DNA of 64,000 nt from the NCBI RefSeq assembly GCF_000179775.1, contig NZ_AEEB01000004.1, forward strand, positions 1 to 64,000, in the 5' to 3' direction. Below are positions 38,113 through 46,020 of the stretch, in pieces. Positions within the stretch are counted from its first letter, which is position 1, and the number at the start of each line of letters is the position of its first letter. The notes under the pieces were generated by a model. That model did not search any database, was not told the origin of the DNA, and saw only the letters and a program-made list of their open reading frames with translations. Both the position numbers and the translations under genes were made by a program. The DNA comes from Ahrensia sp. R2A130 (GTDB lineage Bacteria; Pseudomonadota; Alphaproteobacteria; Rhizobiales; Rhizobiaceae).

Positions 38113-40131
38113 TCAGGAATTGAAATAATCGTCGAGGCCACCAGCGCCCGGATCATCGTGATCCAGCGCGGGGCCTGCGTCGTCGTCCATCTCGTCGTCA
38201 GGGTTGTCGAGACGTTCATCGACGGTGATGGCTTCGGGTTTGAACGGCTCGTCCGGCAATATGGTTGCAGCCTTTTCCGCCTCCAGTTTGGGAAAACGAA
38301 CCTGCGTGATTTTCGAACGCGGGAAGGCTTTCAGCACGGCGGCAACCACAGGGTGCGCCTCGGCGTCGGCCATGGTGCGATCGTGCTCGGCGCTCTCCTG
38401 ATCGGAAATCGTTTCGCTGCCGCCTTCGTGGGTGGTTTCCACAGTCCAGCGGGTGCCGGTCCAGTCCAGCAACCGGTCGGTGATGGTACGAGCGAGGTCT
38501 TTCGGCGCGTTGCCGGTGGGGCGAAAAACGATGTGGCCGGGCGCAAATGAGACTTCGGAAAAGTTGTTGCGAAGCTGCATCTTGAAGCGGATGTCGCGCT
38601 TCGCCTCAGCCAGATCGAGCATGTCCTTCAGGCTTTCGACATTGTCGTAAGCGGGTGCAGCAACGGGTGGCGCTACAGGTTCCGGATCAGCCTGCGGAAC
38701 AAGCTGCGGGGCCGGACGCTTAACGGGTTCGGCTTCTGCTACAGTTTCATTTTCAACAACCAGTTGCGGGCGAGGAGCAGCACTCACAGTCGGGCCGGCG
38801 GTAGGTGCGTTACGACCGCTACCGGCAGCAATCGCCATGGCTCCGCCGCCACCACCGGACGGTGCAGCACCGCCGCCTGCCCCGCCGGAAGGCGCAGAAC
38901 CACCATCGGCCAACTGCCGCAGCGCTTCATCGGGCGTCGGCAGATCGGCGGCGTGGGTGAGACGCACCAGCACCATATCAGCAGCGGCCAGCGGGCGCGG
39001 GGCAGATTGCACTTCGGCAATTCCCTTAAGCAGCATTTGCCACGCGCGGCCCAGAATGCGGGGCGTCAGACGCTCTGCAAAATCTTTGCCGCGTGTCTTT
39101 TGCTGCTGGCTCAAGGACGGGTCGTCCAGCGCGGTGTCGACGTAGCGTACGCGGGTAACGAAGTGGACGAAATCGGCAAGGTCCGTCAGCACGGTGGCGG
39201 GGTCTGCGCCCACATCGTGCTGGGCTTTCATCTCGGCCAAAGCGGCGGCGATATCGCCCTTCATGCAGAACTCGAACAGGTCGATCACGCGGGCGCGGTC
39301 CGCCAACCCCAGCATGTCGCGCACGCCTTCGGCGCGAACGGTAGCATCGCTTTCAGCAGACGCATGGGCGATAGCTTGGTCGAGCACCGACAGCGCATCG
39401 CGAACGGAGCCTTCCGACGCGCGCGCGATCATGGCCAACGCTTCGTCTTCAACAGCGATGCTTTCCAGCTTGGCGATCTTGCCGAGATGATCGACCATCT
39501 CGCCCGCCTCGATACGGCGCAGATCAAAGCGCTGGCAGCGCGACAGGATGGTGATCGGAACCTTGCGGATTTCGGTCGTCGCAAAGATGAACTTCACATG
39601 TTCCGGCGGCTCTTCCAGCGTCTTCAACAACCCGTTGAATGCCGCCGTCGACAGCATGTGAACTTCATCGATGATGTAAACTTTGTAGCGCGCAGAGACC
39701 GGCTTATAGCGCACGGCGGCGATGATCTCGCGAATGTCGCCGATGCCGGTGTGGGAGGCCGCATCCATCTCGATAACATCGACATGGTTGCCTTCCATGA
39801 TGTCGGCGCAGTGGATACCGGGCGTCGAAAGGTCGAGCGTCGGCTGCTTTTGCGTGTCGCTTTCATAGTTCAGCGCGCGGGCCAGAATACGGGCCGTAGT
39901 CGTCTTGCCAACACCACGAACGCCGGTGAGCATGTAGGCTTGTGCAATGCGACCGGTGGAAAACGCATTACGCAGCGTCCGCACCATCGGCTCCTGCCCG
40001 ATGAGATCGGCAAAGGAAGACGGACGATATTTGCGCGCCAGCACGCGATATTCGGACGTCTTGTCAGCTTCTTGAACGCCGAGGTCAAAACCCGGTCCAT
40101 TTTCTTCAGCGGTGTCGGATTCTTCGCTCAT
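38113..40131 (-). CDS. dnaX: DNA polymerase III subunits gamma and tau
   Basis: The clamp-loader ATPase; 672 residues. The N-terminal AAA+ domain has [19 protein letters not shown], Walker [16 protein letters not shown] near residue 69, [20 protein letters not shown] and the SRC motif [12 protein letters not shown]. The zinc module that normally has four Cys between Walker A and [12 protein letters not shown] keeps only one ([11 protein letters not shown]). The tau part carries a Gly/Ala/Pro-rich linker at about residues 417-520. The start is the ATG giving MSEESDTA; an upstream in-frame start at 40167 is possible. ffs lies directly upstream. Confidence 0.95.
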
Positions 40132-40330
40132 ATGATCTTCGAGAACTCCCGAACCCGTGTCGCGCAAAACAGCTCGGCTATTTTCTCAGTCGCGGAAGTC
40201 TTTCCAACCATCATCCGCGCACCAACCTTTCAGCAGGACCAGACGCGTGTCGCCGAAATCGGCACAGCCGATTGAGGTGGATAGACCCGCGCCAACAAAG
40301 AATCCGAACAGCGCATTCGCGCTGTTAGGT

Positions 40331-40431
40331 GGAAGACTGGCTTAGCGTGACCCGATCCGGAATCTCGTTGGGGCTGCTTCGTTCCCGATCTGACCCGGTT
40401 GGCGAGTGGATCGTCCACAAACCAGCCTTCC
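40331..40431 (-). ncRNA. ffs: Signal recognition particle RNA (4.5S type)
   Basis: A 101-base gene upstream of dnaX. The 5' end GGAAGGCTGG pairs with the 3' end CCAGTCTTCC. The apical domain reads GGGTCAGATCGGGAACGAAG followed by CAGCCCC, matching the SRP core GGTCAGG...GGAA...AGCAGCC with its GGAA tetraloop. This RNA binds Ffh and targets nascent membrane proteins. ffs-dnaX-ybaB is a common bacterial order, which supports the call. The ends are set from the terminal helix. Confidence 0.9.
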
Positions 40432-40440
40432 GACTACAGC

Positions 40441-40468
40441 ATATCATGGGCGGGGACCGATTCCGCAA
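40441..40468 (-). promoter_or_regulatory. Probable promoter of ffs
   Basis: On the minus strand TTGCGG (-35) and TGATAT (-10) are 16 bases apart, and the RNA would start 9 bases after the -10. A sigma-70-type site for a stable RNA is expected here. Confidence 0.5.
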
Positions 40469-40503
40469 GCGTTTTGAGAAAAATCTCTCCCCGCACTCTG
40501 CAT

Positions 40504-40804
40504 CTCCCCCCATACTGCCTGTTCTTTAGCGCATGAGCCGACGGTCCGGACCGTCCTGATCGTTGCGTGGAAGCGATCCTTCCGTCGCGCGCGCTTAACG
40601 GTCGCAAGCGGGCGGAGCTCTATGTCGCACCGGCAGAGCTGCCACAACAGCTTCGGGACCGGACGTCGAACGTCAGCAATGGCGGGCCGAGGGCAAGGCC
40701 GATGGGGACTTTCGGGTTCTCATGTTCGGGGAGGTGACGGGAATGGTGTTGAGACACATCCGCAGCAGGATTGAGCGGGGCGAAGGTGTCATGCCTTTTC
40801 GCCT
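40504..40804 (+). pseudogene. Possible decayed coding remnant before the transposon
   Basis: No intact gene. Two overlapping open stretches read coding-like: one encodes KRAELYVAPAELPQQLRDR (from about 40600), and another frame continues WRAEGKADGDFRVLMFGEV and RHIRSRIERGEGVMPFRL up to the transposon end. A single frameshift between them would join them. No family was recognised; it may be chance. Without the insertion the frame would continue for a while past 45232. Confidence 0.25.
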
Positions 40805-40812
40805 GAGACTAC
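40805..40812. repeat. Target site duplication, left
   Basis: TGAGACTA next to the left end; the right partner at 45225-45232 is TGAAACTA, 7 of 8 identical. Eight-base duplications are characteristic of the IS1595 family. Confidence 0.75.
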
Positions 40813-40847
40813 GGCATTATGGAGCAAACTCACCATTAATGGTTAGG
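40813..40847 (+). repeat. Left terminal inverted repeat
   Basis: 35 bases identical to the inverted right end (45190-45224): CGGCATTATGGAGCAAAC followed by TCACCATTAATGGTTAG. The inner half is an 18-bp dyad, CTCACC-ATTAAT-GGTTAG (40830-40847). The outer part encodes the last residues of the first passenger gene. Confidence 0.9.
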
Positions 40848-41095
40848 TTGCCATTCCAGCTTGTGCGGCGGTTTCCAACAATTAAATCAAATAGCCTTTC
40901 GGCGGCACCTAGAGATGCCGCCTTAGCAATGATTTCAATACCAAAATTGGGGCTAGCGTTATGGTACTCATAGACGAAATAGCCGTAGTCTCCCCCCAGG
41001 CCTTTGCCGCCCGCTGCCGCATAAGACTTACGCGCGAGCGGTGATACGCATATAGTGCGATCTCCAATAATAGCTTCGAGATAAATGTCGTCCAT
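40817..41095 (-). CDS. IS1595 passenger protein 1, unknown function
   Basis: 92 residues (MDDIYLEAIIGDRTICVSPLARK...). A predicted alpha/beta protein: N-terminal strands, a Gly-rich loop GGKGLGGDYGYFVYEY and a helical part KAASLGAAERLFDLIVG. No recognised family. Its last nine codons (LTINGEFAP) lie within the left inverted repeat, so the terminal repeat is also coding. Its ATG (41095-41093) overlaps the ATG of the divergent gene (41094-41096) within the palindrome CATG. An in-frame start four codons upstream also exists. Confidence 0.6.
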   Translation of the reverse strand: MDDIYLEAIIGDRTICVSPLARKSYAAAGGKGLGGDYGYFVYEYHNASPNFGIEIIAKAASLGAAERLFDLIVGNRRTSWNGNLTINGEFAP

Positions 41096-41849
41096 GTCAG
41101 CCTCCAAGCCTAAATATTCTTACAACCCAGACCCTCGCCTTTCAGCGAACCAATTAGCTGAGTTGATTCACGCGACGCCTCAACGCAGACGATCAATTAT
41201 AGCAGCTGGAAAGTTCCCAACTGGGGGGATCGTGACGCAGTATAAGGACGCACGCGAAGCGCTCTTGAGTTTCTTGACGGATTCTAATCGTACTTCGCCT
41301 AATTTTTCCACAAAAATTCAAGCGCTGGAGGCTCGCTCGCAAGACCTGTCAATTTCACCGAAGAAGCAGGGAGACGCATCAAGAAGCGCGGAAGCACTGG
41401 AGCGCGTTCACGCTGCCTATCAAAAAACAGGGTTAGGGAAACTCGATCTCGTGCCACTCCCTGCTTCTCGTCCAAAACTTGATATTCAAGGCGTAACAAT
41501 CAGCTTGACGCTTGGCTGCCAAGTTCGTGGTCAATTTAAAGGGAACCCGGCAGTAGGAGCTTTGACCGTCTTGTTCAACAAAAGCGAGGCCTCCGCTTCA
41601 GCGAGAGACGAGCGAGCTCGAACGGCTGCTGCACTATCACTAATCTATGCTACCGAACATTTGGGGGGACATGGAAAAGCCGTTGCTAAGTTATGCCTTG
41701 CATACGATGTTTTTCGGGGAACAGTCACGACCTGCCCGTCACAGATTGCGCGCCGGATTGCGAACATGGAAGCGACTTGCGAAGAGGTCGCTTTAAGATG
41801 GCCCGCGGTGAAAGTGCCAGACGACTATGATGGACCGCCGATAGTTTGA
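41094..41849 (+). CDS. IS1595 passenger protein 2, unknown function
   Basis: 251 residues. The N-terminal helical domain (LSANQLAELIHATPQRRRSIIAAGKF, about residues 16-45) looks nucleic-acid binding because of its Arg cluster. A linker with Ser/Lys leads to a C-terminal alpha/beta domain (about 130-251: LDIQGVTISLTLGC; VGALTVLFNKSE; CEEVALRWPAV). In my memory a similar layout occurs in unnamed rhizobial proteins; the C-terminal core might be a degenerate nuclease fold, which is speculation. It ends exactly where the next convergent gene ends. Confidence 0.7.
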   Translation: MSASKPKYSYNPDPRLSANQLAELIHATPQRRRSIIAAGKFPTGGIVTQYKDAREALLSFLTDSNRTSPNFSTKIQALEARSQDLSISPKKQGDASRSAEALERVHAAYQKTGLGKLDLVPLPASRPKLDIQGVTISLTLGCQVRGQFKGNPAVGALTVLFNKSEASASARDERARTAAALSLIYATEHLGGHGKAVAKLCLAYDVFRGTVTTCPSQIARRIANMEATCEEVALRWPAVKVPDDYDGPPIV

Positions 41850-42131
41850 TTAGTCCTTGGGCACCGCTGATACATCTATGTCGAGGGCGTCGAGGCATTG
41901 TAGCAAGAATGCGGACGAAAATCCGCCACGGCTGATTTTGTTGGCCATGCCGCCTTCACTGATCTCTATGCCACGATCTGTCAGCCGTGAATGAAGCTCG
42001 GCCACGGTGACGCCTTGGTGCTTCATAGCTGTGCGAATAAGATCACGGCCCTTTGCTTCATACTCAGCATTTACTGGTGCATTTTTACGTGGCGTCGGCA
42101 CCGGCGGGCGGTTGTCGATAGCGGCTTCCAA
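41850..42131 (-). CDS. IS1595 passenger protein 3, DUF6471-like
   Basis: 93 residues with one helical domain: AEYEAKGRDLIRTAMKHQGV, TVAELHSRLTDRGIEISEGG, MANKISRGGFSSAFLLQCLD. This matches the DUF6471 pattern, which looks like a helix-turn-helix (Cro-like) fold; function is unassigned. The start is TTG with GGAG seven bases upstream. An operator-like dyad CTAACC-TATTTT-GGTTAC (42145-42162) lies 13 bases before the start. Its fold makes it a candidate for the regulator that binds the element's repeated dyad; that is inference. Confidence 0.72.
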   Translation of the reverse strand: MEAAIDNRPPVPTPRKNAPVNAEYEAKGRDLIRTAMKHQGVTVAELHSRLTDRGIEISEGGMANKISRGGFSSAFLLQCLDALDIDVSAVPKD

Positions 42132-42144
42132 GGCAATTCTCCAT

Positions 42145-42162
42145 CTAACCTATTTTGGTTAC
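42145..42162. promoter_or_regulatory. 18-bp dyad, site 2, between passenger 3 and the transposase
   Basis: CTAACC-TATTTT-GGTTAC. It lies 13 bases upstream of the DUF6471-like start codon, exactly as site 4 lies upstream of the last passenger gene. Confidence 0.6.
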
Positions 42163-42202
42163 GATAACGCTTGACGTGCCATTCGTCTACTGCAATAACA
42201 TA

Positions 42203-42220
42203 CTCACCAAATATGGTTAG
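42203..42220. promoter_or_regulatory. 18-bp dyad, site 3, over the transposase start
   Basis: CTCACC-AAATAT-GGTTAG. It covers the ATG at 42213, so a bound protein would block translation initiation or transcription of the transposase. Confidence 0.6.
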
Positions 42221-43193
42221 GTATGATTATGACTCAACACTTCCTTCTCTCTCTCCCGCAGCTAAGACGCTTTCCCTCGTGAAGGTTCTTCGCATGTCTG
42301 ACGAAGCGGCCCGTGCTGCTTTCCAGAAAATCCGTTGGCCTGAGACGGACGGTGAGCCGGTTTGCCCTAAGTGCGGCTGCTGCGATGCATACGATCTGGC
42401 AACACGTCAGGTGTTCAAGTGCAAAGGTTGCTCCAAACAATACAGCATCACCAGCGGCACAATCTTTGCCAGCCGTAAATTGGCCGTGCGCGACATTCTC
42501 GGAGCGATTGCGATCTTTATAAATGGTGCCAAGGGTTATAGCGCATTGCAGCTTTCCCGCGATCTGAGCGTCGATTACAAAACCGCCTTTGTGTTGCTGC
42601 ACAAGGTGCGGGAAGCCATAGAGCTTGCTCGTGAAGGCGGCGCATTGTCCGGCAACGTAGAGGTTGATGGTGCCTACTTCGGCGGCTACGTGAAGCCCGC
42701 TAACGAAAAGAAAGACCGCAAGGACCGTCGCAAGAAAATCCACCAGTCCGGTAAGCGTCAGGTCGTTGTTGCCATCCGCGAAACCAAGGGCCGCACTCGC
42801 ACCTTCGTCACTCCTACAGAAGCACACGGCGTTGCTCTTGTTGTTGCCAACGTCGAACATGGTTCAACCGTCCATGCAGACGAAGCTTCCCATTGGGATC
42901 GCCTGGCGGCTCACTTCCCAATAAAGCGCATCAATCACCAAGAGGCATATTCAAAAGACGGCGCTTGCACGAACCAGGCTGAGAGCTTCTTTAGCCGCCT
43001 TCGTCGCGCTGAGGTTGGTACTCACCACCACGTCGCCGGTCGCTACCTTCACGCATACGCAGCCGAAATGGCATGGCGCGAAGATAACAACCGTCAGGCG
43101 AACGGCACTCAGTTCGCCATGGCTATGGCTGCTGTAGCGGTTGCCCCTCAGTCCCGTCAGTGGGCTGGATATTGGCAGCGCAGGGCTGGCTAA
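42213..43193 (+). CDS. IS1595-family (ISXO2-like) transposase
   Basis: 326 residues. An N-terminal zinc ribbon (CPKCGCC near residue 54, then CKGCSKQYSITSGTIF near residue 71) is followed by the DDE-type domain. Catalytic candidates are the Asp in VEVDGAYFGG near residue 150, the Asp in VHADEASHWD near residue 222, and Asn/Glu in CTNQAESFFSRLRR near residue 253. The C-terminal AGRYLHAYAAEMAWREDNN is typical of the family. The start is uncertain: ATG 42213 overlaps a dyad, and ATG 42294 (MSDEAARAAF), preceded by GAAGG, would match shorter relatives. It appears intact and may be active. Confidence 0.92.
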   Translation: MVRYDYDSTLPSLSPAAKTLSLVKVLRMSDEAARAAFQKIRWPETDGEPVCPKCGCCDAYDLATRQVFKCKGCSKQYSITSGTIFASRKLAVRDILGAIAIFINGAKGYSALQLSRDLSVDYKTAFVLLHKVREAIELAREGGALSGNVEVDGAYFGGYVKPANEKKDRKDRRKKIHQSGKRQVVVAIRETKGRTRTFVTPTEAHGVALVVANVEHGSTVHADEASHWDRLAAHFPIKRINHQEAYSKDGACTNQAESFFSRLRRAEVGTHHHVAGRYLHAYAAEMAWREDNNRQANGTQFAMAMAAVAVAPQSRQWAGYWQRRAG

Positions 43194-44017
43194 CCCTCTC
43201 CATCACCAAGATAGCCAGGATCGTCCAGATAGCCTGAGTTGTCTGTTCTGTTTTTATCTGCGGCTTGCTCTACAGCGGAGCTTTCAACGGGCTTGATCCT
43301 GCGCTTGGCGCGCTTAGCCATGAGCTTTAGCCAATCTTTAAGGTCAGAAAACTCATTTGCGCTAAGTTCATCAGGGAGTACGAGCGACGCGTAACCGCCA
43401 CCTGTTAAATTTAAGATGTCTGCCTGTGCGTTGTGAGCGTGCGATGGTGGGGGTGTGTTGATAACTTTTGAGGCGTGCATCGTAGCCATAACCTGTTCGT
43501 TCGTTGTCTGAGGCTCGGATTCTGCGCCGGTAACATCCGAAGGAACACTTAAATCGGTTGCTCCGGATTGCTTCAGATACTCGCACGTCTCAAGATAGGC
43601 GGACGTTACGGCGTTTATAGCGCTCTCCAAGAAACCGGAACGCTTGAGATAAGACTTTAACGCTCCCTCCGAGGGAGTAACCTCAAACCGCTCGAATAAG
43701 TCCATATAAAGAGATGGCGCGAATGCTGCCCGCTGTACCGCCGCTGCGGTATCGGCTCCAGGCTCCGGATGAAGAATATCCACCGCCAGATCGGAAACGC
43801 GCATCGTTCCTTTCCCCTGTCGCTCTAAGAGATCGTAGTGGACCAGAGAGGCAATTGCCTTGTCCGACGCGCCGCTTACGCTGCGATAACCAATATGCGA
43901 TGCGATTGTTTCGCGGTCCACTGGATTTTGTCTATCCGCATCAAAGACTTGACGCACCCTATCAATTGCTGCCGGTAGGGATAAGCTTGGATAGCGCGGG
44001 CTGTTCGTTCTGGACAT
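43190..44017 (-). CDS. IS1595 passenger protein 4, winged-helix N-terminus, unknown function
   Basis: 275 residues. An N-terminal winged-helix-like domain (YPSLSLPAAIDRVRQVFDAD; ETIASHIGYRSVSGASDKAI; ASLVHYDLLERQGKGTMRVS) is followed by a helical part (residues 85-150, SLYMDLFERFEVTPSEGALK), a polar linker and a basic C-terminus (MAKRAKRRIKPV). Similar unnamed two-part proteins occur in rhizobia, from memory. The start has GGAGAAAG nine bases upstream. Its stop shares bases with the transposase stop (CTAA), so the two genes converge with overlap. Confidence 0.75.
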   Translation of the reverse strand: MSRTNSPRYPSLSLPAAIDRVRQVFDADRQNPVDRETIASHIGYRSVSGASDKAIASLVHYDLLERQGKGTMRVSDLAVDILHPEPGADTAAAVQRAAFAPSLYMDLFERFEVTPSEGALKSYLKRSGFLESAINAVTSAYLETCEYLKQSGATDLSVPSDVTGAESEPQTTNEQVMATMHASKVINTPPPSHAHNAQADILNLTGGGYASLVLPDELSANEFSDLKDWLKLMAKRAKRRIKPVESSAVEQAADKNRTDNSGYLDDPGYLGDGEG

Positions 44018-44473
44018 AATTGCTTTCTCCGGCAAATAATTCTCTAACAGTTTGAGTGTTTATCTTACCTTCAAAACCCATACAATCAACAGGATCAGAG
44101 TGGATACCCTTATAATTTTAGAGAAATTCTGAAAGATAGTGGCGAAAAATGAGCGGCAGGGGTTGCGGCTCCACTCAACCGCACGCAAAAAGACCCAGCA
44201 GATGGGAATCATCTGCTGGGTCTTTAGGAGTAATATATTGGAGCCCATATCGAAGGCGCGGTTCAATGAGGTCTCGAACACCTGATTGTTCCGTCAGTCG
44301 CCAGTTAGGCGGCAGGGGTCGGATTAGCACCCGACCTCAACCCATCTCAGGAATAATCCTGCGATGAAAACGAAGGCCGATGAACGGACCACGTCGCAAC
44401 AGGCGGACCATGATTCATGCCGAATAGAAGGTCAAGCCGTTCTTCGGTCGTACAGTGCAAGAGGTAAATGCAC
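44018..44473. other. 456-base divergent gap inside the transposon
   Basis: No convincing gene. It holds a 16-bp perfect hairpin (44189-44225) and must contain promoters for passengers 4 and 5. No copy of the 18-bp dyad was found here, unlike the other divergent gap. A structured RNA in this space cannot be excluded. Confidence 0.5.
44189..44225. terminator. Perfect 16-bp hairpin
   Basis: AAAGACCCAGCAGATG and CATCTGCTGGGTCTTT around the loop GGAAT. The A-run before and T-run after make it a bidirectional terminator by form. It lies in a divergent gap, so it would cut read-through or attenuate a leader rather than end a gene. Confidence 0.7.
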
Positions 44474-44665
44474 ATGCATGACCGCAAGGTAACTGCCGAA
44501 ATGGCCGCGCTAATCAAATTGGCGCGAGCTTTAAAATACAACTACTCCGTAATCGCCGCATATCTGGTGATCAATCAAGGGCGTATTGCTGACGTGATGA
44601 AGGGGCGCTTGTTCCCTGACGTTGCACCGCGCGCCTATCTGCCTGACGACTTCCCGAAGGCATAA
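44474..44665 (+). CDS. IS1595 passenger protein 5, small helix-turn-helix-like protein
   Basis: 63 residues (MHDRKVTAEMAALIKLARAL...). The segment NYSVIAAYLVINQGRIADVMKG has the form of a helix-turn-helix in which NQGRI is the recognition-helix start; such small NQGRIS-type proteins are common on mobile elements. AGAGG lies about 9 bases before this ATG, favouring it over the ATG two codons upstream. It is followed by a terminator shared with the convergent last passenger gene. Regulatory role is inference. Confidence 0.65.
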   Translation: MHDRKVTAEMAALIKLARALKYNYSVIAAYLVINQGRIADVMKGRLFPDVAPRAYLPDDFPKA

Positions 44666-44675
44666 ACGCATACGT

Positions 44676-44705
44676 AGGGGCGGCCTCACTGGTCGCCCCT
44701 TTTTA
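44676..44705. terminator. Rho-independent terminator shared by passengers 5 and 6
   Basis: AGGGGCGGCC-TCACT-GGTCGCCCCT (one G-T pair) followed by TTTTT. The stop codon of passenger 6, on the other strand, lies inside the stem. Confidence 0.85.
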
Positions 44706-45156
44706 ATTGCCACAGCTTATACGGTCCATGCTTGTCATGCGTCGTGGTCCAACCAACGCCTTCAATCAGACCTTGAGCGACAGACGCTCTAATGCAGCCG
44801 CTGACGCGCTTTCGGAGCGTCACGTAGGTTGCCTCGCTTGCGACCAATCCGCGATCTTCGGCCCATTTTACCGTGATCTGGCGGCATGTGAGCGGGCCGT
44901 CAGCCTCACGCATGGTATCGAGAACGAACCGCTTCACGCTACCCATTTGAGCGCGGTGCTTACTGACAAACGCCTTTATATCGTAGGTGTTCGCATCTGG
45001 ATCGAACAGGCGGATGGCCGCGTGTAAGTGGTCTATATCGACCGTCAGCTTTTTGATCTCGGCTTCATATTGGCGACGAAGGCGGGAAAGCTGCGCGTGT
45101 TTTTCGACAAGGCCCGAAACGGTGTTCGGGCGTTCGTATGTTGGTTCATCTGTCAT
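44686..45156 (-). CDS. IS1595 passenger protein 6, coiled coil plus winged helix
   Basis: 156 residues. A coiled coil (SGLVEKHAQLSRLRRQYEAE, about residues 14-50) precedes a winged-helix-like domain (GSVKRFVLDTMREADGPLTC; RQITVKWAEDRGLVASEATY; RKRVSGCIRASVAQGLIEGV). Similar unnamed proteins are frequent beside IS elements in rhizobia and methylobacteria, from memory. Two dyads lie directly upstream (45169-45186 and 45190-45207), the first 12 bases before the ATG. It may be a DNA-binding regulator or transposition accessory. Confidence 0.75.
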   Translation of the reverse strand: MTDEPTYERPNTVSGLVEKHAQLSRLRRQYEAEIKKLTVDIDHLHAAIRLFDPDANTYDIKAFVSKHRAQMGSVKRFVLDTMREADGPLTCRQITVKWAEDRGLVASEATYVTLRKRVSGCIRASVAQGLIEGVGWTTTHDKHGPYKLWQLKRGDQ

Positions 45157-45168
45157 GCCCCAACATAC

Positions 45169-45186
45169 CTAACCACATTAGGTTAG
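45169..45186. promoter_or_regulatory. 18-bp dyad, site 4, upstream of passenger 6
   Basis: CTAACC-ACATTA-GGTTAG, a perfect inverted repeat. Its centre is 21 bp (two helical turns) from the centre of the dyad in the right terminal repeat, so proteins on both would face the same side. Confidence 0.65.
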
Positions 45187-45189
45187 TCA

Positions 45190-45224
45190 CTAACCATTAA
45201 TGGTGAGTTTGCTCCATAATGCCG
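45190..45224 (-). repeat. Right terminal inverted repeat
   Basis: 35 bases identical to the inverted left end. Its inner half is the dyad CTAACC-ATTAAT-GGTGAG (45190-45207), site 5 of the series. Confidence 0.9.
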
Positions 45225-45232
45225 TGAAACTA
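45225..45232. repeat. Target site duplication, right
   Basis: TGAAACTA, partner of TGAGACTA at 40805-40812 (one mismatch). Confidence 0.75.
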
Positions 45233-45271
45233 CAGGCTAACGGCAGACTTCTTCGTCCCGCTGGCTCATCT

Positions 45272-45360
45272 TTGCGCTCACGCTGTCGGCCCGCTGGGCC
45301 TTCGCTACACGAGTGCGGCGCAACTAGCGCCGGGCGGCTCTTCGCCGCCTGCTGATCGCT
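45272..45360 (+). repeat. Dispersed palindromic intergenic repeat, copy E
   Basis: TTGCGCTCACGCTGTC, hairpin GGCCC-GCT-GGGCC (45288-45300), then GCTACACGAGTGCGGCGC and a GCGCC-rich tail. It lies 40 bases right of the transposon. Confidence 0.7.
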
Positions 45361-45414
45361 CGGACGTCGGAAGACGGGTCGATGTTTTTGCTTGTCCGAA
45401 ATCCATCACACCAA

Positions 45415-45560
45415 TGTCATCCCCGCGCAGGCGGGGAACCACTTCGCAACGAAACGTGGCGAGAAAGGCAAAAAACGATCTTGCCCTGCATTCACCATCC
45501 CAAACCCCTCCACCGCCACGTCTCGTGGATGAGTGGGTCCCCGCCTGCGCGGGGATGACA
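45415..45560. repeat. Inverted pair 1 of the TGTCATCCCCGC repeat
   Basis: TGTCATCCCCGCGCAGGCGG at the left and its reverse complement at 45534-45560 enclose about 92 bases, themselves partly self-complementary (CGAAACGTGGCGAG / GCCACGTCTCG). REP-like element or small non-autonomous mobile unit. With copy E it fills the gap 45233-45588, which has no gene. Confidence 0.8.
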
Positions 45561-45588
45561 GCGAGGAGTGGGGTGACTAATCAGACAC

Positions 45589-46020
45589 ATGACCAGCTTC
45601 ACCCTCGACCCACGTCTCGACGCCGATACGCACCTCATCGCCAACCACGGTTCGTTCTCCATCCGGCTGATGGACGATGACCGCTGGCCGTGGATTATTG
45701 TGGTGCCGGAAGTTGCCGGACTGACGGATATGGATGGGCTGGATGATGCGCTCGCGATCGACCTCGCCATCACCCTGTCGCGCCTGTCCGCTATCGTGAA
45801 AAATCTCGGCCTCGCCGACAGCACCAATGTGGCGACGCTTTCCAACATGGTCACGCAGATGCACTGGCATGTGGTCGGGCGCAGCGTCGGCGACCCCGGT
45901 TGGCCCGGGCCGGTTTGGGGGCATGGCGAGCGGGTGCCTTACGCGGCAAACGATGCTGCTGCACTCGTTGCGCGGCTGCGCGCAGCGTGGGACAAGGTGG
46001 CACCGAAGCCGACAGCCTGA
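45589..46020 (+). CDS. HIT-like family protein
   Basis: 143 residues with the histidine-triad fold: DRWPWIIVVPEVAGLTDMDG near residue 32, then TQMHWHVVGRSVGDPGWPGP near residue 88. The canonical His-x-His-x-His reads Gln-Met-His-Trp-His, as in many alphaproteobacterial relatives. HIT proteins cleave nucleoside phosphoramidates or dinucleoside polyphosphates. It lies directly before nudC, another nucleotide-cleaving enzyme, likely in one operon. Confidence 0.8.
   Translation: MTSFTLDPRLDADTHLIANHGSFSIRLMDDDRWPWIIVVPEVAGLTDMDGLDDALAIDLAITLSRLSAIVKNLGLADSTNVATLSNMVTQMHWHVVGRSVGDPGWPGPVWGHGERVPYAANDAAALVARLRAAWDKVAPKPTA

Follow-up and report, generated by a model that had tools for sequence, protein, structure and literature searches.

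A cargo-bearing IS1595-type transposon of Ahrensia sp. R2A130 with a putative DUF6471 regulator and exchangeable gene slots

Results

The element and its borders

The window analysed here is a 64-kb stretch of Ahrensia sp. R2A130 (assembly GCF_000179775.1, contig NZ_AEEB01000004.1, positions 1-64,000), and the feature under study is an IS1595-family transposon of 4,413 bp within it, at 40812-45224. Between inverted ends, it contains a transposase gene (P4) and six further open reading frames (ORFs), P1-P3 and P5-P7. It probably represents a stalled copy of a small bacterial mobile element of a common kind, which combines fixed genes for movement and control with exchangeable cargo. The initial annotation of the window had proposed an IS1595 transposon with six passenger genes; the reading of an IS1595 transposon with passengers holds, and all six additional ORFs are present. 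Counts in the list below refer to the long and short related elements described later.

40804-40811, no strand: left copy of the target duplication, TGAGACTA, identified from the sequence and from nine of nine fetched host repeat copies that are uninterrupted and have one 8-mer
40812-40846, plus strand: left inverted end, 35 bp, containing an operator-like site at 40830-40845 with half-sites TCACC/GGTTA
40817-41095, minus strand: P1, an ORF of 92 aa from ATG 41095 (96 aa if from TTG 41107), cassette gene 1
41085-41849, plus strand: P2, 254 aa (251 aa from ATG 41094), cassette gene 2, predicted RecB/Cas4-like fold
41093-41096, no strand: CATG, on which the P1 and P2 start codons overlap; this arrangement recurs in 5/9 P1-P2 loci, the window included
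41850-42131, minus strand: P3, putative DUF6471 regulator of 93 aa with a TTG start, matching PF20075 at 1.2e-22 and divergent from the transposase
42146-42161, no strand: operator-like site at the P3 promoter, TAACC-N6-GGTTA
42171-43193, plus strand: P4, transposase ORF of the IS1595 family, whose domain is not in frame with ATG 42229, the start seen in relatives
42204-42219, no strand: operator-like site at the transposase promoter, TCACC-N6-GGTTA
43190-44035, minus strand: P5, 281 aa (or 275 aa if a later ATG is used), cargo, in 11/78 long elements; structure modelled
44468-44665, plus strand: P6, 65 aa, helix-turn-helix-like by eye, semi-core, in 20/78 long elements
44686-45156, minus strand: P7, 156 aa, coiled coil and probable winged helix (by eye), core accessory gene, in 78/78 long and 4/4 short elements
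45170-45185, no strand: extra operator-like site upstream of P7, TAACC-N6-GGTTA, placed by reading the sequence
45190-45224, minus strand: right inverted end, 35 bp, containing an operator-like site at 45191-45206
45225-45232, no strand: right copy of the target duplication, TGAAACTA, identified from the sequence and the fetched host repeat copies

The two ends, 40812-40846 and 45190-45224, are inverted repeats of 35 bp with no mismatch, as the initial annotation had stated; its start at 40813 was one base too far in. A repeat finder returned 36 bp for the same ends because one base of the duplication pairs by chance. The 8-bp target duplication matches at 7/8 positions, and the single mismatch between TGAGACTA and TGAAACTA had also been correctly described.

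The flanks (40480-40811 and 45225-45520) belong to a dispersed host repeat, with several matches 87-93% identical over ~330 bp. A left-flank query gave 24 matches in the genome, or 23 without the window's own, some of them partial, and nine copies were fetched for comparison of the junction (L136-L144). In all nine, the junction is contiguous and contains a single target 8-mer: TGAGACTA in six; TGAAACTA in two; and TGAGAATA in one. This provides an empty-site proof within the host genome itself, where the initial annotation had proposed a comparison of strains. Both variants of the duplication are thus present among uninterrupted copies of the repeat. When the left end (61 bp) was used to query the same genome, only the two ends of this element were matched, making it single-copy there.

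The transposase

The P4 product matches Zn_ribbon_IS1595 (PF12760, 9.3e-14) at its N-terminus and DDE_Tnp_IS1595 (PF12762, 6.6e-42), and D166, D237 and E271, which we take to be the catalytic residues, are invariant in the transposase alignment. Relatives begin with the motif M-x-Q-H-F-L-L-S. In the window, the corresponding sequence (MTQHFLLS, ATG 42229) lies in a frame different from that of the domain, owing to a CT run of different length, and reaches a stop after 17 residues. Of the 79 elements that have the motif, 76 continue from it in frame for more than 250 codons and three, the window among them, do not; three further elements lack it. Alternative in-frame starts in the window are ATG 42213 and TTG 42171. 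The window copy may therefore be stalled, may start at one of these codons, or may be misassembled at this position; with the transposase start out of frame, it is probably unable to move alone now. The initial description of an intact transposase stands for the zinc ribbon, the DDE domain and the D/D/E residues, and is not supported as to the word intact.

Related elements

The panel of relatives was drawn from three sources: a transposase scan of viral contigs (11 loci); plasmids (7 fetched for the panel, out of 276 matching records); and a scan with a profile of genomes representing one species each, from which the best 80 of 371 candidates were taken. The total is 99 loci including the window. 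An accepted pair of ends was found in 82 of these, the other 17 being omitted, and a duplication matching at no fewer than 7/8 positions accompanies the ends in 73/82, so that ends similar to those of the window do bound relatives elsewhere, a check that the initial annotation had called for. Four elements are short (1.1-1.7 kb) and 78 are long (2.9-7.0 kb, median 3,972). Read by eye, the consensus ends approximate CGGYATTATGKAGCAAACKCACCA, with the form CGGYATTATG...CACCA, and the duplications show a preference for S-R-A-W-W-Y-T-S (counts of 73).

Mobility of the whole unit is indicated by two chromosomal copies in Phenylobacterium J426 (L072/L074), which are 99.92% identical over 3,888 bp, cargo included, and lie at different sites: each has its own perfect duplication, and the left flanks are dissimilar over the 1.5 kb compared. 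Separately, a single element fills one Methylobacterium contig (L122) exactly from start to finish, suggesting that multiple copies were collapsed into it; its end is also matched close to the starts of three more contigs and within a fourth.

Constant genes and variable slots

Gene presence was scored by profile search of six-frame translations. The transposase and P7 are present in 78/78 long elements, as is a small divergent regulator, of the DUF6471 family in 65 of them and XRE-like in 13. The short elements retain the transposase and P7 (4/4) and lack the regulator (0/4). P6 occurs in 20/78 long elements and P5 in 11/78, while P1 and P2 occur in the same 3/78, the three from which their profiles were built. 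An alignment of the DUF6471 and XRE-like profiles with hhalign detected no relation; the XRE label is itself a reading of the sequence. The XRE-like protein (L087, L090, L110 and 10 others) takes the place of DUF6471, so that regulators, too, are exchanged.

Cargo occupies two variable slots: one from the left end to the regulator; and one from the transposase to P6/P7. The left slot is empty in L047, L050 and L051. When the window DNA was compared with the 98 other loci, no relatives were found for P1, P2, P5 or the spacer before P6, while the transposase had up to 86, the ends 12-16, P6-P7 4-18 and DUF6471 up to 8. Among recurring cargo clusters, 12/35 were found in both slots, in different elements. 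These include P2, P5, P63C, Panacea and a three-gene cassette (left in L064, middle in L101); the identification of cluster CL7 as P63C and of CL8/CL16 as Panacea comes from equal member counts and direct matches for L046 and L108. A further 183 non-core ORFs of at least 60 aa have no relative in the panel, and some of them will be spurious.

By this distribution, P1 and P2 are one cassette and P5 another, P6 is semi-core, and P7 and the regulator are core. The initial proposal of a cargo that travels together as a coherent module is contradicted by the same counts (P7 and regulator 78/78, P6 20/78, P5 11/78, P1 with P2 3/78, and 12/35 clusters in both slots), and the co-occurrence search that it had suggested found, among the relatives examined, none holding all six proteins. 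A transporter insertion sequence (tIS) has, between its ends, genes that are dispensable for transposition; the variable, exchangeable slots would fit such a type.

The putative regulator and its candidate operators

The P3 protein matches PF20075 with 80 bits, where the gathering cut-off is 26.8. Both ends, and the promoters of DUF6471 and the transposase, contain a palindrome in which two 5-bp half-sites flank a 6-bp spacer; in the window, these operator-like sites start at 40830, 42146, 42204, 45170 and 45191. Across 25 elements, the operator-like sites on average resemble others of their own element more closely than those of different elements (15.0 versus 12.2; p 5e-5, by a permutation that takes no account of ancestry).

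Promoter half-sites fall into three classes, TAACC (class A), TCACC (class B) and TCATC (class C), and the class tends to track the DUF6471 residues that precede NKISRG. Regulators with RGLE have class B promoter operators in 6/6 cases, those with ERN have class C in 8/10, the remaining two being tied between B and C, and those with GG.A have class A in 6/9, one of the six being tied with B. At the ends, the outer half-site is almost always TCACC and the inner half-site varies: it is that expected from the regulator class at 32/50 ends, that of another class at 6, and something other at 12. By class, the expected inner half-site is found at 14/18 ends for GG.A, 10/12 for RGLE and 8/20 for ERN. 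On the transposase tree of the 25 elements, the regulator classes need six changes, the minimum being two. L057 and L061 are well-supported sisters in this tree, and between them the promoter operators and inner ends differ along with the regulator class.

The best reading of these patterns is that DUF6471 would bind the palindromes and repress the transposase and itself. The self-control that the initial annotation had offered as a possible benefit of the cargo finds support for DUF6471 at the sequence level. A literature search on DUF6471 found nothing.

Genes of the window cargo

P1 and P2 are adjacent and divergent, with 5' ends that overlap or nearly do so, in nine of nine loci counted (the window, L065, L084, L145, L146, L147, L152, L153 and L032). 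A single CATG is shared by both starts in five of these: the window, L065, L084, L145 and L152. L154, which has a P2 fragment without P1, was kept outside this count, and a locus found later, L162, contains P1, P2 and a DUF6471 fragment. The pair is rare; P2 was matched in 4/297 genomes of the order, the host genome and a fragment included.

RecB/Cas4-like PD-(D/E)XK nucleases carry a catalytic (D/E)-x-K motif. The model of P2 (predicted local distance difference test score 85.8, predicted template modelling score 0.82) gave a best Foldseek E-value of 1.1e-3. VIA gave Z 9.8 for Dna2, 9.6 for ACE1 and 9.4 for AddA; its first 33 rows all belong to the RecB/Cas4-like superfamily (Z 9.8 to 6.4), with 18 chains at Z of 8 or more. 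In the eight aligned P2-type proteins, no acid was found two positions before the conserved lysine (8/8), and the lysine is lost as well in L153. Together, the model and alignment predict a RecB/Cas4-like nuclease fold that lacks the usual catalytic acid. P1 had no family match in domain and defence-model searches.

The model of P5 consists of a confidently predicted, winged-helix-like N-terminal part, a low-confidence linker and a C-terminal helix. Its fold search returned generic winged helices only, with a best Z of 7.5 and many tied. An IS1595-type transposase, full or partial, lies within ~0.6 kb of P5-type genes in 5/10 loci of other genera, drawn from a sample of the family. At L016, L019, L020 and L021, P5-type genes adjoin full or partial, distant IS1595-type transposases. 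Sequence searches of the PDB with profiles of P7, DUF6471, P5 and the transposase gave nothing convincing.

Cargo of relatives

Without the window's own, 209 slot ORFs were listed and 205 scanned, some of which are surely spurious. The four unscanned ORFs are L057:5977-7137 and L070:5024-6634 (both antisense to the transposase), L070:4767-5072 and L074:7191-7727 (a near-copy of a scanned one). The families named here are among the matches listed. The left slot of L039 holds a ShosT-ShosA pair (ShosA 2.7e-63, ShosT 1.9e-8). Elsewhere, the cargo includes AbiD (L052), a type IIG restriction-modification enzyme (L036), BstA (L110, 2.7e-121), DNA methyltransferases (L090 and L102), SocA/Panacea (L108), P63C (L046), a dCTP-deaminase-like protein (L042), Fic/Doc (L099), NYN (L089) and a Tle1-like lipase domain (L109).

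Panacea and P63C are strongly over-represented, by several hundred-fold or more if 3,000 genes per genome are assumed. Panacea was matched in 8/205 slot proteins and P63C in 5/205; scans of 142 whole genomes of the class gave 28 and 4 matches, respectively. The Pfam cut-off was E<=0.01 per protein for slot proteins and E<=0.001 per genome for whole genomes. BstA was considered as the identity of the P63C proteins and rejected: L110:4466, L121:8486 and L053 have no PADLOC match, and BstA lies elsewhere in L110. An enrichment of PADLOC defence families as a whole (family counts of 40 and 97 versus 7) was likewise dropped after direct scans of proteins.

The commonest left-slot cargo (CL6 and CL18; L033 and 11 other elements) is a protein of ~230-330 aa that appears membrane-anchored by eye; the one member scanned singly had no Pfam match. 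L024:7174-8244 encodes a fusion of nucleotide-cyclase and NUDIX domains, possibly a signalling protein.

Other features of the locus

A bacterial small signal recognition particle (SRP) RNA lies just left of the element, at 40332-40427 on the minus strand (RF00169, 51.7 bits), and an Rfam scan of 40000-46000 found nothing besides this host RNA. The spacer between P5 and P6 contains an inverted repeat of 16 bp without mismatch around a 5-nt loop (44189-44225), a candidate terminator or RNA.

Discussion

Proposed mechanism

Taking the ends, the constant genes and the slots together, we consider it likely that the window element belongs to a cargo-bearing type of IS1595 element that is widespread in alphaproteobacteria, is controlled by a regulator and has two cassette slots. 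In such an element, a dimer of the regulator (here DUF6471) would bind operators of 5 bp-N6-5 bp at its own promoter, at the transposase promoter and in the ends. Bound DUF6471 would lower expression of its own gene, of the transposase and probably of P7, and might also mask the ends. Since the cargo-free relatives of 1.1-1.7 kb keep P7, it is probably a transposase partner. Less certainly, the cargo would earn its keep through a block on other mobile DNA or through addiction; in the window copy, the paying cargo would be the P1-P2 pair and the DNA-binding-like P5.

A broader proposal is offered tentatively, since we judge it somewhat less probable than its negation: that compact alphaproteobacterial IS1595 elements, as a large class, form a regulated shuttle, in which DUF6471 or XRE-like regulators and operators in the ends keep the element silent and the two slots spread small cassettes that act against mobile genetic elements (MGEs) or confer addiction, with P1-P2, given its CATG overlap and pseudo-RecB nuclease fold, a new two-gene defence or addiction system.

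Several observations weigh against these proposals. The panel was picked by transposase similarity, with the four short elements coming from one plasmid search, and 78/78 is therefore not an unbiased census. As called, the end pairs of L036 and L108, which carry the type IIG enzyme and Panacea, have no matching duplication. The operator classes partly follow ancestry; an element's own promoter is the best match to its ends in 6/25 cases only (ranking 21st for L048 and 20th for L068); 3/9 GG.A regulators have class B promoters; and the exact expected inner half-site is reached at 8/20 ERN-class ends. In a class-wide sample of DUF6471 loci, a transposase of this type lies within ~1.5 kb in only 5/12, the window's included, several of the remaining loci being fragments or at a contig end. 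With regard to defence, PADLOC matches at E<1e-20 were obtained for at least 7/205 slot proteins (direct scans of 20) versus 2/104 length-matched flank proteins. A single type IIG protein matches 30 PADLOC families and two methyltransferases match 65 and 71, so that redundant models inflate family counts and the difference per protein is small. Not being clearly enriched per protein overall, PADLOC matches make "defence transposon" a tendency and not a definition. Lastly, none of the seven window proteins matched PADLOC at E<0.001, and no match of the window cargo to any known defence family was found. The defence role suggested in the initial annotation has support by association only, through some relatives that carry known defence or toxin-antitoxin genes.

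Alternative explanations

P1, P2 and P5 could instead be helpers of transposition or target choice that some elements use, and not selfish or defensive cargo. The predicted nuclease-like fold of P2 and the winged-helix features of P5 would suit such a role, and the IS1595-type transposases, often distant, within ~0.6 kb of P5-type genes at five of ten loci of other genera (L014, L016, L019, L020 and L021) keep it in consideration. Yet P5 is found in 11 and P1/P2 in 3 of the 78 long elements, in either slot, and elements without any of the three do move, as the L072/L074 pair illustrates. P1 and P2 also occur with no transposase in the stretches examined, on two viral contigs (L145, L146), a plasmid (L032) and a genome locus (L153), and with only a fragment of one at L147. 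We regard the helper role as unlikely.

Equally improbable, in our estimate, is a decaying remnant whose cargo no longer functions. The out-of-frame transposase start, the single copy and the mismatch in the duplication are what such a remnant would present; against it speak the identity of the ends over 35 bp, the open cargo ORFs, the well-formed operator-like sites and the presence of both duplication variants among host repeat copies without an insertion.

A third alternative concerns control: P7, rather than DUF6471, would read the operators in ends and promoters, and DUF6471 would act otherwise. P7 is present in all 82 elements, often at the right end, and its C-terminal half is winged-helix-like by eye. 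The operator class, however, tends to track the recognition motif of DUF6471 and differs with it between sister transposases, leaving this assignment more doubtful still.

That the six genes form one coherent functional module is very improbable: a decayed locus of another genus (L014) does retain remnants of P7, P6, P5, the transposase and DUF6471 in the window order, and L048, L058, L059 and L064 hold P3, P5, P6 and P7, but all six occur together in no relative examined, P1 and P2 occur without P5 (L065, L084, L152), P5 lacks P1/P2 in 10/11 elements, and cargo is exchanged between slots.

Significance and comparison with known systems

Under the preferred reading of a regulated element with two cassette slots, a domain of unknown function gains a testable role, with DUF6471 as a transposon repressor that reads the ends. 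The loose category of IS1595 passenger genes becomes an architecture with clear borders, and these borders are usable as a net for new small defence or toxin-antitoxin cassettes. What would be new here is the constant regulator, the operator-like sites in the ends, the P7 found throughout the panel and the two slots, passenger genes of IS1595 elements being already known. Literature searches on IS1595 elements with passengers, defence or regulators, and on transposon cargo and defence, which covered few subscription journals, did not find this architecture.

Among known proteins, the P2 model resembles the RecB, AddAB, Dna2, Cas4, ACE1 and MGME1 fold, with VIA Z of 8-10 over 161-219 residues to Dna2, AdnA, AddA and ACE1. 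P2 is unlike the nucleases of this fold in having no acid two positions before the conserved lysine (eight proteins) and in having a small divergent partner, P1. ShosTA, AbiD, BstA, type IIG restriction-modification and SocA/Panacea are known systems that occur as cargo in relatives; the window element has no PADLOC match to them at E<0.001.

As a transposon, the element is most readily compared with IS1595 tIS such as ISNha5, with which it shares a zinc ribbon and DDE transposase, 8-bp duplications and passenger genes. In PMC11891212, which cites the 2009 IS1595 family paper of Siguier and colleagues, IS1595 elements with passenger genes are described, and ISNha5 is reported to carry a transcription regulator as a passenger; IS1595 subgroups and 8-bp duplications are described in PMC8101967. 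Unlike ISNha5 as described there, the present type has a constant regulator, operator-like sites in the ends, P7 throughout the panel and two slots, some of them with toxin-antitoxin or defence genes, though some of these features may be found in ISNha5 too.

Tn7 relies on more than one transposition protein, in fact several, and has a preference for attachment sites. Tn7-like transposons, according to PMC8649781, shuttle diverse anti-MGE and toxin-antitoxin cargo, and the element type described here likewise carries varied cargo, some of it defence or toxin-antitoxin. Unlike Tn7-like transposons, it has a single IS1595-type DDE transposase and consists of units of 2.9-7.0 kb, flanked by 8-bp duplications at varied sites and carrying one or a few cargo genes.

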